Origin: Clostridium sp.
GTDB taxonomy: Bacteria; Bacillota; Clostridia; Clostridiales; Clostridiaceae
DNA length: 64,000 nt
Direction: 5' to 3'
Assembly (NCBI GenBank): GCA_022773025.1
Contig: JALEZF010000058.1
Span: 60,236-124,235 of the forward strand
The translations under genes were made by a program, and so were the position numbers. Below the pieces are notes generated by a model. It was given only the letters and a program-made list of their open reading frames with translations. It was not told the origin of the DNA and made no database searches. Of this stretch, positions 3,084 through 35,134 are shown piece by piece (position 1 is the stretch's first letter; the number at the start of each line of letters is the position of its first letter).

Positions 3084-4418
3084 ATGAAGGTTATAATAAT
3101 TGGAGGAATTGCAGCGGGAACAAGTGCAGGAGCAAAATTAAAAAGAATATCTCCTGATACTGAAGTAGTAATATATGAAAAATCAGATATAGTATCTTTT
3201 GGGGCATGTGGCCTTCCATATTTTGTAGCGAATTATTTTGAAGAACCGAACCAAATGATAGCTAGGACACCAGAAGCTTTTGAGAAATCTGGAGTTAAAG
3301 TTAAGACAAAACATGAAATTATAGATGTAAACTTTCATGATAAATTTGTTATAGTTAAAGACCTATCTAATGGTAAGGATTTTAAAGAACACTATGACAA
3401 GCTTATGATTGCAACGGGTGCTAGCAGTATAATACCACCTATAAAGAATGTGAATACTTCGAATGTATGCACATTAAAATCCATGGAAGATGGAGTAAAG
3501 CTAAAGGGGCTAATGAAGGATCCTAGCAATAAAAAAGTTGTCATAGTAGGTGCTGGATTTATAGGACTTGAGGCGGTAGAAGCTGCAAAAGAACATGGAA
3601 AAGAAGTATCAGTGGTGCAGCTAGAAGATAGAATTTTAAAAGATGTATTTGACAAAGAAATAACTGATCTTTTAGAAGAAGAGATTAGAAATAAGGGAGT
3701 AGAACTTTATCTAAATGAAACAGTTAATGAAATAATAGGTAGCGAGAAAGTCACAAAGGTAAAGACAAATAAAAGGGAAATAGATGCGGATATAGTTGTC
3801 ATTGCCACAGGTGTAAGACCAAATACAGAAGTCTTTAAAGATAAAGGATTAGATATGCTTAGAAACGGAGCTATTATAGTAGATAATAAAGGCGCTACCT
3901 CAATAGAGGATGTTTATGCTGCTGGTGATTGTGCAACTATACCTAGCCTTATAGATGGAGAACCTTTATATGTACCTTTAGCTACTGGTGCCAATAAACT
4001 TGGAAGAATAGTAGGAGAAAATATAGGAAATATGAATTCTAAATACCCAGGTTCTTTAGCATCAAGTTGTATTAAAGTTATGGATATGGAAGCAGGAAGA
4101 ACTGGACTTACAGAAGCACAGGCAGAAAAGCGAGGAATAAACTACAAGGTAAAATTCATAAATGATATGAACCAAACAAGCTACTATCCTGGACAAAACA
4201 AAATATATTTAAAGCTTATATACCATAGTAGTACTAAGAGAATTATTGGAGGTCAGATTGCTGGATACAAGGATGCAGTACAAAGGGTAAATGTAATAGC
4301 GGCATGTATATTTGCAGGGCTTACTACGGATCAATTAGGAATGCTTGATTTATGTTATGCACCACCTTTTGCAAGAACTTGGGATGCACTAAATGTATTA
4401 GGAAATGTAAGCAAATAA
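3084..4418 (+). CDS. CoA-disulfide reductase / NADH oxidase family flavoprotein
   Basis: This 444-aa protein belongs to the class III pyridine nucleotide-disulfide oxidoreductases. It has an N-terminal FAD site (IIGGIAAGTSAGAK, residues 5-18), a single redox Cys42 in FGACGLPYF, an NAD(P)H site (VVIVGAGFIGLEAVEAA, about residues 152-168), the FAD-contacting VYAAGDCA motif, and a C-terminal dimer domain with YYPG and CYAPPF. The two tyrosines in those motifs correspond to the active-site tyrosines known in CoA-disulfide reductases. It either reduces CoA disulfide or a related disulfide, or reduces oxygen. The partner gene, a cystine symporter 29 nt downstream, favours disulfide reduction after cystine import. 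Ribosome-binding site GAGAGGAG precedes the ATG. Confidence 0.85.
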   Translation: MKVIIIGGIAAGTSAGAKLKRISPDTEVVIYEKSDIVSFGACGLPYFVANYFEEPNQMIARTPEAFEKSGVKVKTKHEIIDVNFHDKFVIVKDLSNGKDFKEHYDKLMIATGASSIIPPIKNVNTSNVCTLKSMEDGVKLKGLMKDPSNKKVVIVGAGFIGLEAVEAAKEHGKEVSVVQLEDRILKDVFDKEITDLLEEEIRNKGVELYLNETVNEIIGSEKVTKVKTNKREIDADIVVIATGVRPNTEVFKDKGLDMLRNGAIIVDNKGATSIEDVYAAGDCATIPSLIDGEPLYVPLATGANKLGRIVGENIGNMNSKYPGSLASSCIKVMDMEAGRTGLTEAQAEKRGINYKVKFINDMNQTSYYPGQNKIYLKLIYHSSTKRIIGGQIAGYKDAVQRVNVIAACIFAGLTTDQLGMLDLCYAPPFARTWDALNVLGNVSK

Positions 4419-20637: not shown

Positions 20638-22233
20638 CTAGTTATTTGCACCACTGAACTCTAAATATTCATCATAAGTCATAGTTCTATCAACTATAGA
20701 ACCATCATCCTTTATATCTATAATTCTATTTGCTATTGTTTGAAGGAATTGATGGTCATGAGAAGCAAAGATTAAGTTGCTCTTATAATCATTTAATCCA
20801 TTATTTAAAGCTGTGATTGACTCAAGGTCAAGGTGGTCTGTAGGCTGGTCTAACATAAGAACATTAGCATTGCTAAGCATCATTTTAGAAAGCATACATC
20901 TAACCTTTTCTCCTCCAGAAAGCACACTAGCTTCTTTAAGCGCTTCTTCGCCGGAGAATAGCATTCTTCCAAGGAAACCTCTTATATAGCTTTCAGATTT
21001 CTCCTCAGAGTACTGTCTTAGCCAGTCTACTAGAGTCATATTCACTCCATCGAAGTATTCAGAGTTATCATTAGGGAAGTAAGCTTTTGTTATAGTGATT
21101 CCCCATTTATAGCTTCCGCTGTCAGGTTCCATTTCTCCAGCTAATATTTTAAATAAAGTTGTAATAGCCAAACTATTTCCGATTAAAGCTATTTTATCAT
21201 CTTTATTTAATCTAAAGCTTACGTTGTCTAAAACTTTAACACCATCTATAGTCTTAGAAATACCTTCTACAGTAAGTATGTCGTTTCCAACCTCTCTTTC
21301 AGGTTTGAAGCCTACGAAAGGATATCTTCTACTTGATGGCTGAATGTCATCTAAATTTATCTTGTCAAGAAGCTTTTTACGTGATGTAGCTTGCTTTGAT
21401 TTAGAAGCATTAGCACTAAATCTAGCAATAAAGTCTTGAAGCTCTTTGATTTTTTCTTCTTTCTTCTTGTTTTGATCTTTAGCCATTTGTAGAGCAAGCT
21501 GACTTGACTCATACCAGAAGTCGTAGTTTCCGGTATATAATTTAATCTTTCCAAAATCTACATCAGCCATATGAGTACAAACTGAATTTAGGAAGTGTCT
21601 GTCATGGGATACAACTATAACAGTTCCTTCAAAGTTTATTAAGAACTCTTCCAACCAGTTTACAGCTTTTATGTCTAAATGGTTTGTAGGCTCGTCTAAT
21701 ACAAGTACTCCAGGATTTCCAAATAGAGCTTGAGCTAAGAGAACCTTTATCTTTTCAGAACCAGTAAGCTCAGAAACCTTTTTGTAGTGGGTATCAGTAC
21801 CAAGACCTAACCCTTGAAGTAAAGTTGAAGCTTCAGATTCAGCTTCCCATCCATTTAAATCAGCAAACTCTCCTTCAAGCTCGGAAGCTTTCATTCCGTC
21901 TTCATCGCTGAAGTTTTCTTTAGCATATAAAGCATCTTTTTCTTTCATTATAGAATAAAGACGTTCATTACCCATTATTACCGATTCTAATACTTCAAAT
22001 TCATCATATTTGTAGTGGTCCTGTTTTAATACAGACATTCTTGTATTGGGAGCAAGTACCACTTCACCAGTATTAGGTTCAACTTCTCCTGCTAATATCT
22101 TTAAAAATGTACTTTTACCAGCACCATTAGCTCCGATAACTCCATAGCAGTTACCAGGAGTAAATTTTAAATTTACGTCTTCAAATAGTTTACGTCCGCC
22201 ATATCTTAAGCTAACATTGGATACAGTTATCAA
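20638..22233 (-). CDS. ABC-F family ATPase (YbiT/YkpA type)
   Basis: About 531 aa with two ABC ATPase domains and no membrane segment, joined by a charged linker (about residues 240-310). Domain 1 has a normal Walker A (GANGAGKST) and LDEPTNHLD. Domain 2 has a divergent P-loop, IGNSLAITTLFK, without the usual Lys, and LDQPTDHLD; the YbiT/YkpA branch shows similar drift. ABC-F proteins act on the ribosome, relieving stalls or protecting from antibiotics. TTG 22233 is preferred over ATG 22248 because GAGGGAG lies 6-7 nt before the TTG and family members begin (M)ITVSNVSLRYGG. The first ATG overlaps that ribosome-binding site. Confidence 0.85.
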   Translation of the reverse strand: MITVSNVSLRYGGRKLFEDVNLKFTPGNCYGVIGANGAGKSTFLKILAGEVEPNTGEVVLAPNTRMSVLKQDHYKYDEFEVLESVIMGNERLYSIMKEKDALYAKENFSDEDGMKASELEGEFADLNGWEAESEASTLLQGLGLGTDTHYKKVSELTGSEKIKVLLAQALFGNPGVLVLDEPTNHLDIKAVNWLEEFLINFEGTVIVVSHDRHFLNSVCTHMADVDFGKIKLYTGNYDFWYESSQLALQMAKDQNKKKEEKIKELQDFIARFSANASKSKQATSRKKLLDKINLDDIQPSSRRYPFVGFKPEREVGNDILTVEGISKTIDGVKVLDNVSFRLNKDDKIALIGNSLAITTLFKILAGEMEPDSGSYKWGITITKAYFPNDNSEYFDGVNMTLVDWLRQYSEEKSESYIRGFLGRMLFSGEEALKEASVLSGGEKVRCMLSKMMLSNANVLMLDQPTDHLDLESITALNNGLNDYKSNLIFASHDHQFLQTIANRIIDIKDDGSIVDRTMTYDEYLEFSGANN

Positions 22234-22440
22234 TAAATTCTCCCTCATTTCTTTTGTTATTCATCAGCATATTATACCATAGAATGTCATTATAGAGAAC
22301 AGGTAAGTAATTTTAAACCTATGAAGCCTTGACAGTTTTGTAAATATGATGATAAAATAAAGAAAATTATTTAAATTTGGAGAATAAAATTATGATATGC
22401 TTAATTGTTGAAAAGGTAAAATTTAATAAAGTGTATTATT

Positions 22441-22648: not shown

Positions 22649-23811
22649 ATGGAAAAGAAAAAAAGAGAAAGTTTTAGTAGTAGCGCAGGATTTGTTTTGT
22701 CCTGCATTGGAGCAGCAGTAGGTCTGGGGAATATATGGATGTTTCCATATAGATTAGGTCAGAATGGAGGAATGGTATTTTTAATTCCTTATTTCTTATT
22801 TGTTCTAGTCTTAGGGTCTACAGGACTTATAACTGAATTTGCTTTTGGTAGAAAGTTTAGAAGCGGGTCAATGAATGGAATAAGGACAGTGTTTAAAGAA
22901 AAACACAAAAGAGGAGGTAGAATTTTAGGAATAATACCTGTACTTGGACTTATGGGAGTCTTTATGTCTTACACTATAGTTGTAGGATGGGTAATAAAGT
23001 ATTTTTCTATGGGTATTTCAGGGGAACTTAGTACTATAGATATAAATAGTTATTTTGATAGTTTTTCAGGTACAAGCAATACGATATTATGGAACTTTAT
23101 TGCTATAATATTGACAGTTATCATAGTTTATATGGGAGTCACTAAGGGAATAGAAAAAATAAACAAAATAATTATGCCAGCATTATTTATAATATTTATA
23201 CTTTTAGGAGTGAGATCATTAACCCTCCCAGGAGCTATGGAAGGGGTAAGGTATCTTCTAACTCCAAAATGGGAATACCTTTTTAAGGTTAATACTTGGG
23301 TAATGGCTTTAGGCCAAGCATTTTTTACTGTATCCTTAAATGGATGTGGTATGGTGGTTTATGGAAGCTATATAAAAGAATATTTTGATATACAAAAATC
23401 AGCCTTAAGTACAGCACTTTTAGATACCATGGCGGCCCTTTTAGCATCATTTGTTATAATGCTATCAGTATTTGCCTTTAATTTAGATCCTATGGCAGGA
23501 CCTCCATTACTATTTATTACAATGCCAACAATATTTAAGGCTATGCCAGGAGGAAGAATCATATCAATAATATTTTTCTTAAGTTTATTATTTGCGGCAA
23601 TATCATCATCAATAAATATGTTGGAAGGACCTGTTGAGGCTATGATGTCTCAAACAAAGTTTGATAGAAAAAAGCTGCTGTGGTAATAGCTTCTATAGCA
23701 TTTGTTCTTTCAATACCGTTAAATATGAGTATGACAACATTTGATAATTTTCCTAAAATAATAACTGTAGCTGTTATTATTTTAGGAATAGTATATGGGG
23801 GAATTGGCTAA
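22649..23811 (+). pseudogene. Frameshifted Na+:neurotransmitter symporter family transporter
   Basis: The N-terminus (SSAGFVLSCIGAAVGLGNIWMFPY) and later segments are typical of bacterial NSS/SNF transporters, which import amino acids with sodium. The frame stops at 23684-23686 after about 345 codons. One extra A in the AAAAAA run at 23668-23673 would restore a frame (AAVVIASIAFVLSIPLNMSM...) that runs to TAA 23811. Even so, the repaired protein is about 387 aa against roughly 440-500 for the family. FDNFPKIIT is joined straight to a last helix, so a second lesion, an internal deletion near helices 11-12, is likely. AGGAGG precedes ATG 22649. The structured leader upstream once controlled this gene. 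Confidence 0.8.
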
Positions 23812-23901
23812 TATAATCAATATGTTCTTGTAAGTATTGAATGGGATGGGATGATTGTGATATAATTGATATTAATTATTAAATAATAAGGGGTGTAAAT
23901 A

Positions 23902-24255
23902 ATGAGTGCTTTATTTGTAGAATATCCAAGATGAACCACTTGCAAGAAGGCTTCAAAGTTTTTGAAGGAAAATAATGTAGAGTTTAATGATAGACATATA
24001 GTTGAGAATAATCCAACCAAGGAAGAATTACTTCACTGGATGGAAATCAGTGGATTAGAAACTAAAAAATTCTTTAATACGTCAGGTGTATTGTATAAAG
24101 AGATGAATTTAAAAGATAAAATAAAAGATATGTCAAGAGAAGAGGCGGCAGAGCTTTTAGCATCTAACGGCATGTTAGTGAAAAGGCCTGTTCTAGTAAA
24201 AGACGGCAAGGTTCTTGTTGGATTTAAAGAAGAATCCTATAAGGAAATATTATAA
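23902..24255 (+). CDS. ArsC/Spx-family thioredoxin-fold protein with in-frame TGA, candidate selenoprotein
   Basis: ATG 23902 (AAGGGGTG upstream) begins MSALFVEYPR, then TGA at 23932-23934, then TTCKKASKFL and an intact 106-codon frame to TAA 24255. The full 117-aa product matches the arsenate reductase/Spx family, with NTSGVLYKEMNLKDK and a GMLVKRP loop. Cys homologues read YP(K/R)CTTCxKA, so TGA falls exactly on the first Cys of CxxC, giving UTTC if read as selenocysteine (position 11). A hairpin at 23951-23967 is a plausible bacterial SECIS. The alternative is a nonsense mutation (TGC or TGT to TGA) in a decaying gene, since both neighbours are pseudogenes. Its redox substrate is unknown; arsenate is not implied by the family. 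Confidence 0.7.
23951..23967 (+). promoter_or_regulatory. Candidate bacterial SECIS element
   Basis: CTTCAAA and TTTGAAG form a perfect 7-bp stem closed by loop GTT. The loop G is 24 nt after the TGA. Bacterial SECIS hairpins lie within the coding region just after UGA, with a G (often GU) at the start of the apical loop; this fits. It encodes part of the ASKFLK helix, so the match could be chance. Confidence 0.45.
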
Positions 24256-24576: not shown

Positions 24577-24593
24577 ATAAGATATAAAATTAA

Positions 24594-24688
24594 ATAACGG
24601 GGGGCTTGCACCTGCAGGCTGAGAGTAAGCTAAATGTAGCTTTGACCCATAACTTGATTTGGATAATGCCAACGTAAGGAAAGCGGAT
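24594..24688 (+). ncRNA. TPP riboswitch (THI element)
   Basis: Conserved TPP motifs are present in order: GGGGGGCTT, CTGAGAG, the variable P3 arm, GACCC, TTGAT, GGATAATGCC and CGTAAGGAAAG. It lies upstream of an intrinsic terminator and thiD, so thiamine pyrophosphate should switch transcription of thiD off. Confidence 0.92.
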
Positions 24689-24702
24689 AGTAGAATTATT
24701 TT

Positions 24703-24804: not shown

Positions 24805-25584
24805 ATGAAAAAAGTACTAACTATAGCAGGGTCTGATTGTAGCGGTGGAGCAGGAATACAGGCGGACATAAAAACTATTACAGCCCATAAGATGTATGCT
24901 ATGAGCGTAATAACTTCTCTTACAGCTCAAAATACAACAGGAGTTTATGGTGTCCTTGATACTGAAGCAGAGTTTGTTGAAAATCAACTAGACTGCGTTA
25001 TGAAGGATATATTTCCAGACAGCATAAAGGTAGGAATGGTTTCATCTTCAAAAATAATAAAGTCTATCGTAAAAAAATTAAATGAATATAGACCAAAGAA
25101 CATAGTTGTAGATCCAGTGATGATATCTACAAGTGGAAGCAGACTTCTTAATGAAGAGGCCATGGATAGTCTAATAAATGAATTGATACCATTAGCTGAT
25201 TTAATAACTCCAAACATAGCAGAAGCTGAATGCCTTTGTGATTTTAAAATAGAAAGTAATGAAGACATGGAGAAAGCAGCAATTAAAATTTCAGAAAAGT
25301 ATAAAGGAAACATCCTGATAAAAGGTGGACACCTTGAACATTGTAGCGATGATTTATTGTATCATGAAGGTGAATTTACATGGTTCAAAGGTATAAAGGT
25401 AAACAATCCTAATACTCATGGTACTGGATGTACACTTTCATCTGCAATAGCTTGTAATTTAGCAGATGGGAATTCCATAGAGGACAGTATAAAAAATGCC
25501 AAGGAATATATAACAGGGGCTTTAGAGGATGGCTTAAATTTAGGACAAGGTAGTGGACCTTTAAACCACTGTTATAGGCTTTAA
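24805..25584 (+). CDS. thiD: Hydroxymethylpyrimidine / phosphomethylpyrimidine kinase
   Basis: This 259-aa ribokinase-fold enzyme has the family's opening TIAGSDCSGGAGIQADIKT, the SLTAQNTTGV segment, and the C-terminal NTHGTGCTLSSAIA anion hole with its catalytic Asp region intact. It phosphorylates HMP and HMP-phosphate for thiamine synthesis, or salvages HMP. A TPP riboswitch and terminator precede it. It is the only thiamine gene here, so it may serve pyrimidine salvage or complement genes elsewhere. Start ATG 24805 has AAAGCGGGAG upstream. A strong terminator follows. Confidence 0.93.
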   Translation: MKKVLTIAGSDCSGGAGIQADIKTITAHKMYAMSVITSLTAQNTTGVYGVLDTEAEFVENQLDCVMKDIFPDSIKVGMVSSSKIIKSIVKKLNEYRPKNIVVDPVMISTSGSRLLNEEAMDSLINELIPLADLITPNIAEAECLCDFKIESNEDMEKAAIKISEKYKGNILIKGGHLEHCSDDLLYHEGEFTWFKGIKVNNPNTHGTGCTLSSAIACNLADGNSIEDSIKNAKEYITGALEDGLNLGQGSGPLNHCYRL

Positions 25585-34795: not shown

Positions 34796-35134
34796 ATGAA
34801 CATACAAATCTTTGGTATAAAAAAGTGTTTTGATACAAAGAAAGCTGAGAGATACTTTAAAGAGAGAAATGTAAAGTTTCAGTTTATAGATCTAAAAGAA
34901 AAGGCTATAAGCAAAGGGGAACTTACTAATATAAAGAATGCTGTAGGATTAGAAAATCTCATAGACAAAAAATCTAAAGATTATAATAAGCTTAATTTAG
35001 ACAAGATACGAAGTGCGGAGATGAGGGAAGAGATACTTCTAAAAAATCCTTCACTGTATATGACACCAATAGTTAGAAATGGAAAGAAAGCTACTGTTGG
35101 CTATAAGCCTGAAGTATGGCAAACTTGGGAATAA
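34796..35134 (+). CDS. ArsC/Spx-family thioredoxin-fold protein (Cys form)
   Basis: The 112-aa protein has a thioredoxin-like fold of the arsenate reductase family: MNIQIFGIKKCFDTKKAERYF places a catalytic Cys11 in KCFDTKK, with no second Cys at the CxxC position, and the C-terminal part reads NPSLYMTPIVRNGK. It is therefore the Cys counterpart of the TGA-containing gene at 23902. Family members include glutaredoxin-linked ArsC and the RNA polymerase-binding Spx; this one is neither clearly. GAGG is 11 nt before the ATG. A terminator follows. Confidence 0.82.
   Translation: MNIQIFGIKKCFDTKKAERYFKERNVKFQFIDLKEKAISKGELTNIKNAVGLENLIDKKSKDYNKLNLDKIRSAEMREEILLKNPSLYMTPIVRNGKKATVGYKPEVWQTWE

Follow-up and report, generated by a model that had tools for sequence, protein, structure and literature searches.

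An ArsC-related gene of Clostridium with TGA at its first active-site cysteine codon very probably encodes a selenoprotein

In a stretch of 64,000 nucleotides from a Clostridium sp. genome (contig JALEZF010000058.1; below called the window), an ArsC-like reading frame runs from ATG 23902 to the stop codon 24253-24255 and is interrupted once, by a TGA at 23932-23934. This is codon 11, in the context YPR-TGA-TTC, where a first cysteine of a CxxC motif should be. Is the TGA a lesion in a decaying gene, or is it read as selenocysteine (Sec)? The question has a practical side: standard gene finders take the TGA as the end of such a gene, and the active site is therefore lost from the annotation. 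Judging from the comparison of sequences, we are nearly certain that the gene encodes a selenoprotein with Sec at codon 11. This reading draws on the conserved frame, the conserved TGA, the presence of the sel genes, a hairpin after the TGA and the alternation of Cys and Sec among homologues. The features of the locus, in window coordinates, are:

23837..23866, + strand: promoter-like TTGAAT-18-TATAAT with TG before the second hexamer, from a sigma-70 promoter scan
23888..23895, + strand: Shine-Dalgarno-like AAGGGGTG, read from the sequence
23902..24255, + strand: ArsC-related gene, very probably of a selenoprotein, 118 codons including the stop and one in-frame TGA; matches TIGR01617
23932..23934, + strand: TGA, by sequence comparison very probably read as selenocysteine, residue 11, first position of UxxC
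23941..23943, + strand: TGC, the putative resolving Cys14 of the UxxC motif
23951..23967, + strand: SECIS-like hairpin, 7-bp stem, GTT loop with G first, 23 nt after the TGA
23953..23955, + strand: TCA, codon of Ser18, in the 5' arm of the hairpin; Ser is found here in none of 116 Cys homologues

An initial annotation, based on the letters of the window, had described the TGA as the only in-frame stop, placed at the first Cys of CxxC, with an intact frame on either side and a ribosome-binding site in front. The reading frame agrees in full: there is no other in-frame stop in 23902-24255, and a Shine-Dalgarno-like element is read at the expected place. The promoter-like site is no evidence, because the scan of the region gave four such sites versus 6.2 expected from shuffles and is thus uninformative. 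SelB with Sec-tRNA would decode the UGA of codon 11 under the direction of the hairpin shortly after it, and the product would be a thioredoxin-fold protein of 117 residues with a U-T-T-C active site.

The within-genus comparison consists of one other genome, that of Clostridium cadaveris (NZ_CP076620.1). It has the same gene, of unchanged length, with the TGA kept and the same hairpin. Between the two species there are 30 synonymous and 7 non-synonymous changes (28 of the 34 changed codons are synonymous), corresponding to a dN/dS of 0.037, and the value is the same for codons 12-117 alone. The gene is thus under strong purifying selection across the UGA. In codons 1-10 there is one synonymous change and no other. 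It had been argued that a stop would hardly fall on this codon by chance, and the TGA at the same place in C. cadaveris, together with the predominance of synonymous changes, supports this. Likewise, the picture that would have spoken for decay, close relatives all with Cys, without a hairpin and with disabling mutations, is not the one that C. cadaveris presents. Further, codons 16-28, which have the hairpin inside, are identical in both species, for which the chance is 0.008 under random placement of the changes. The hairpin codons 17-23 alone are also unchanged, with a chance of 0.08, which is not significant.

How widespread is the TGA among homologues? A protein query was run against 206 genomes of the family, and a 15-row alignment query (E 1e-15) against genomes from the order (225), the class (391) and the phylum (398); these sets overlap, the class and phylum sets are samples, and the counts of TGA genes are lower bounds. 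Among the matches listed, copies with one TGA occur in at least 6 genomes of the family, at least 3 more in the class sample and at least 34 more in the phylum sample. At least 44 TGA genes are found in at least 43 genomes, one of which has two copies 2.7 kb apart. In all 44 listed TGA genes that were fetched, the TGA is on the codon of the first active-site Cys. Apart from TGA, the matches listed show a single stop, namely a TAA in one partial match (G564).

The site was then compared over 160 of 174 rows, once 11 identical ones, the paralogues L020 and L021 and locus L074, in which the site is lacking, had been taken out. The codon is TGA in 44, TGC in 59 and TGT in 57 of them, and nothing but TGA or Cys is seen. 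The TGA/TGC alternation among orthologues that had been proposed as a check is thus found. The resolving Cys14 is kept in 115 of the 116 Cys proteins versus 28 of the 44 Sec proteins; the other 16 have Val, Ala or Ser there. Three Sec ArsC-like proteins with UTSV, and so without the resolving Cys, come from genomes of 1.5-1.7 Mb (L050, L051, L052). In the genome with two copies (L079), the Sec genes lie at 601-951 and 3267-3617 within a 3.7-kb stretch; exonuclease III-like and epoxyqueuosine reductase-like ORFs separate them, and a flavodoxin-like ORF precedes both (all named from sequence).

Insertion of Sec depends on a dedicated machinery, and the initial annotation had asked for selA, selB, selC and selD in the genome, the lack of all of them being an argument against its reading. 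All four are present. SelA is found at 534 bits, SelB at 390 bits and SelD, which has one TGA of its own, at 401 bits; among 14 control genomes, just 2 exceed the cut-off for each of these models. The tRNA-Sec scores 62.2 bits against a gathering score of 47, with a model that is over its cut-off in 5 of the 14 control genomes. The genes selD, selA and selB are consecutive on one contig (C19). GrdA of the same genome also has one TGA.

The machinery follows the TGA gene over a wider range as well. Among the matches listed, all 43 genomes with a TGA gene have a SelA match that spans positions 1-366 of 367. In the family, SelA at E < 1e-100 is found in 6 of 6 listed TGA genomes versus 82 of 200 other genomes, which include genomes without the ArsC-like gene. 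For class and phylum together the numbers are 37 of 37 TGA genomes versus 16 of 41 genomes with a stop-free copy, the latter hand-picked from the rows of the phylum search.

The hairpin is formed by the arms CTTCAAA (23951-23957) and TTTGAAG (23961-23967) around the GTT loop, and 23 nt separate the loop G from the TGA. Its energy of -3.4 kcal/mol is equalled by 6 of 5,000 synonymous recodings. The claim of a 7-bp hairpin with a G-first loop after the TGA is upheld for the hairpin itself; the 66-nt region as a whole is no more stable than its shuffled versions, 141 of 200 of which equal or exceed its stability (z +0.57). The stem is weak and A+U-rich, and most other Sec members have energies of about -4 to -10 kcal/mol.

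To compare TGA and Cys genes we used two rules. The lenient one requires a G as first or second loop base, 16-37 nt past the codon, and an energy of -3 kcal/mol or lower; the strict one also requires a stem of 6 bp or more, a loop no larger than 5 and G as the first loop base. A lenient hairpin is found in 40 of the 44 TGA genes versus 22 of the 116 Cys genes, and a strict one in 32 versus 7, while 4 TGA genes are without any hairpin at -3 or lower. The Fisher value of 2e-17 is no true probability, as the rows are related by descent, and the Cys set leans to near kin because 80 of the loci stem from the search of close relatives. In the genome of the window, a 6-bp hairpin whose first or second loop base is G follows both the TGA of GrdA and another TGA near it. 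The strict rule misses some cases, because the TGA of SelD in this genome has no hairpin that qualifies under it.

By our own count, 30 of the 42 other Sec members carry one of two common stem types. AAGCCAA-GGN-TTGGCTT-like stems, at a spacing of 19-20, are found in 21 and GCGAAAGC-GTG-GCTTTCGC-like stems, at a spacing of 23, in 9. The hairpin of the window gene is like the second type in its 23-nt spacing and its G-first loop of three bases, and different in its stem. The RNA signal also appears to leave a trace in the protein. Residue 18 is Ser in 2 of the 44 Sec proteins, namely in the window and C. cadaveris pair only, and in none of the 116 Cys proteins. Residue 19 is Lys in 102 of the 116 Cys proteins and Ala or Asp in 31 of the 44 Sec proteins, in which its codon supplies a loop G in the common hairpin types. 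This pattern fits amino acid changes that were paid for an RNA signal, with shared descent explaining part of the count.

Two other explanations of the TGA have to be weighed against the selenoprotein. In a pseudogene, a TGC or TGT codon would have mutated once to TGA, which takes a single step, and the gene would be decaying like the transporter before it. That transporter (22649-23686; sodium-neurotransmitter-symporter-like, as named from sequence) is indeed truncated, with 345 aa versus 439 aa in C. cadaveris. The flanking genes had been called decayed; this is only half right, because the next gene downstream (24805-25584; thiD-like, again named from sequence) is an intact ORF of 259 aa. 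A decaying gene would not be expected to show the low dN/dS on both sides of the TGA, the unchanged length and the conserved first ten codons. Further, all 44 TGAs are on one codon, in genomes with SelA, and the TAA of the partial match is the single other stop among the matches listed. We rejected the pseudogene on the purifying selection, the TGA kept in C. cadaveris and the shared codon in 44 of 44 genes, and attach hardly any probability to it.

Alternatively, the UGA might be read as some other amino acid, through near-cognate readthrough or a reassigned code, or translation might restart downstream, for instance at TTG 23962, from which an ORF of 97 aa is open. Against these readings stand the first ten codons, which are without amino acid change between the two species, the Cys that all 116 non-TGA homologues have at the site, and the presence of the full Sec machinery; both were rejected. 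We consider either version extremely improbable.

Some other features of the neighbourhood should be mentioned. A TPP riboswitch candidate (24588-24697) precedes the thiD-like gene; at 51 bits it is just under the gathering score of 54.3, and it is not reported in the whole-window scan at gathering scores. The window also contains a second ArsC-like protein, at 34820-35119, with an ordinary Cys (KKCFDTKKA) and about 33% identity. A search for shared neighbours covered 33 loci, namely the window plus 32 further stretches, each 7-12 kb long; they have no operon in common, and no neighbour is present in more than 9 of the 33. The largest cluster is the ArsC-like protein itself (15 loci). An ABC-type ATPase, named from sequence and a common kind of gene, is found in 9 loci (the window at 20638-22248, L202, L204, L207, L210, L214, L218, L219 and L220). 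A rubrerythrin-like gene, named from sequence, lies in the 12-kb stretch of the Sec gene in three loci (L208, L195 and L196, two of them of one genus), a weak hint of a link to oxidative stress.

Given that the protein very probably contains Sec, where does the Sec come from? A single clade of all Sec rows is rejected, with p-AU 0.002 for 140 rows (the 160 less 20 Cys rows more than 90% alike) and 9e-57 for a hand-chosen subset of 41 rows; an independent conversion of Cys to Sec in the C. cadaveris lineage is therefore probable. In the tree the window and C. cadaveris pair is placed among Clostridium Cys rows, with weak support for the exact place. Each other aside, the nearest rows of the pair are Cys, without its hairpin. 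Two points lead us to prefer a gain over a loss: the Cys state of the close rows and the different sequence of the stem in the pair. These observations suggest that the switch from Cys to Sec and its RNA signal were made independently in this lineage. In the full scenario the conversion would be recent, with the SECIS built de novo inside the coding sequence through the change of residue 18 to Ser, for the 5' arm, and through synonymous changes. The same codon would have been converted several times in parallel within Bacillota, with the resolving Cys lost afterwards in some of the cases. We regard this scenario as somewhat favoured.

The Sec of the C. cadaveris lineage may also be ancestral, or transferred from another Sec lineage, with the other Clostridium copies having lost it and no independent gain. 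The counts on the unrooted tree give no direction, and of the 8 Cys/Sec changes needed on the 140 rows only 2 are forced by well-supported branches. The tree test does not reject a clade that joins the pair to the three g30 Sec rows (p-AU 0.21), and the hairpin has the spacing and the loop of one of the common types. However, the stem sequence is unlike both of these types, and the spacing differs from that of the AAGCCAA-GGN-TTGGCTT type carried by the g30 rows. The rejection of one all-Sec clade and the Cys state of the nearest rows also speak for an independent gain, and we find an ancestral or transferred Sec rather unlikely.

What the protein does has to be judged from its family. With the TGA read as Sec it matches Pfam ArsC at 73.6 bits (cut-off 24) and, as the best NCBIfam match, TIGR01617 arsC_related at 117 bits (cut-off 75.05), the title of which is "Spx/MgsR family RNA polymerase-binding regulatory protein". 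It misses the cut-offs of the arsenate reductase model TIGR00014 (40.2 bits versus 106.05) and of the Spx models NF002459 (60.7 versus 123), NF009210 (45.3 versus 159) and NF009885 (44.4 versus 152). Of the earlier assignment to an ArsC/Spx family, the broad membership is thus confirmed, while neither Spx nor arsenate reductase proper is reached. The solved homologue 3gkx matches over residues 1-115 (E 3e-39); 3fz4 and 2m46 are other solved relatives and Spx is more distant.

We prefer, with reasonable confidence, a small thiol/selenol oxidoreductase to a regulator. The Sec would be the attacking selenolate that reduces an oxidised substrate; a Se-S bond with Cys14 would then form and be reopened by cellular thiols. 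If the protein were instead a redox switch on RNA polymerase, as in Spx or MgsR, the Se-S bond would be the sensor and there would be no enzyme. The title of the best NCBIfam match points in this direction, and the UxxC aligns with the CxxC of solved Spx (3l78). However, the Spx-specific models are far below their cut-offs. Glu53 is opposite Gly52 of 3l78, presumably the contact to RNA polymerase alpha, although a Gly (residue 51) is two places away and the alignment is weak. Further, an internal switch is unlikely to be the general mode, because 16 of the 44 Sec members are without the resolving Cys; this makes the switch doubtful and is why the small oxidoreductase is preferred.

The two Sec species, surrounded by Cys orthologues that are 65-80% identical (among the matches listed), offer a clean natural experiment on the gain of Sec. 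It displays the codon, the hairpin and the price in amino acids (Ser18), and makes this an unusually readable case of a change from Cys to Sec. The points of interest are the apparently independent origin of the SECIS, as none of the 116 Cys homologues has Ser18, and the Sec relatives without the resolving Cys, which raise the question of what selenium buys in this fold.

Sec-containing ArsC-like proteins are not new as such. An "arsenate reductase" with UxxS is described in 14 Sargasso sequences (PMC1088965), and two ArsC-like selenoproteins are published (PMC1794560). In the description of PMC2398784, ArsC 1 has UxxS and ArsC 2 ("Arsenate reductase 2", cd03032) has UxxC, the latter listed with 42. 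NF041106 ArsC_rel_Se_1 is given as UxxC (PMC13188914), and such proteins are also covered in reviews (PMC9312934, PMC13188914). The main text of PMC5029168 mentions neither ArsC nor arsenate reductase. The gene had been put forward as a candidate new selenoprotein; the comparison supports the selenoprotein, and "new" was too strong, because Sec-containing ArsC-like families are already in print (PMC1088965, PMC1794560, PMC2398784, PMC9312934, PMC13188914). In the open-access literature we found no report of the Clostridium protein, and among open-access titles and abstracts on C. cadaveris selenoproteins, or on segmented filamentous bacteria and selenocysteine, none was relevant.

How does the window protein compare with the known systems? 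It resembles the Spx/MgsR family of TIGR01617 in passing the cut-off of that model, and differs in its very probable Sec, as Spx and MgsR use Cys. With the NF041106 "ArsC family (seleno)protein" it shares the ArsC family and the place that is occupied by Sec or Cys; however, it scores 33.4 bits against a cut-off of 85, and 10 other Sec members whose scores were inspected also fall below the cut-off. The published Sec ArsC-like proteins, as far as they are described in the sources above, belong like the window protein to the ArsC/COG1393 family, have Sec at the N-terminal active-site position, and are reported with hairpins after the UGA. The cd03032 group has the same UxxC motif, and its "Arsenate reductase 2" may or may not be of one branch with the window protein. 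The descriptions name marine metagenomes and deltaproteobacteria, whereas the window protein is from Clostridium and nested among Cys orthologues.
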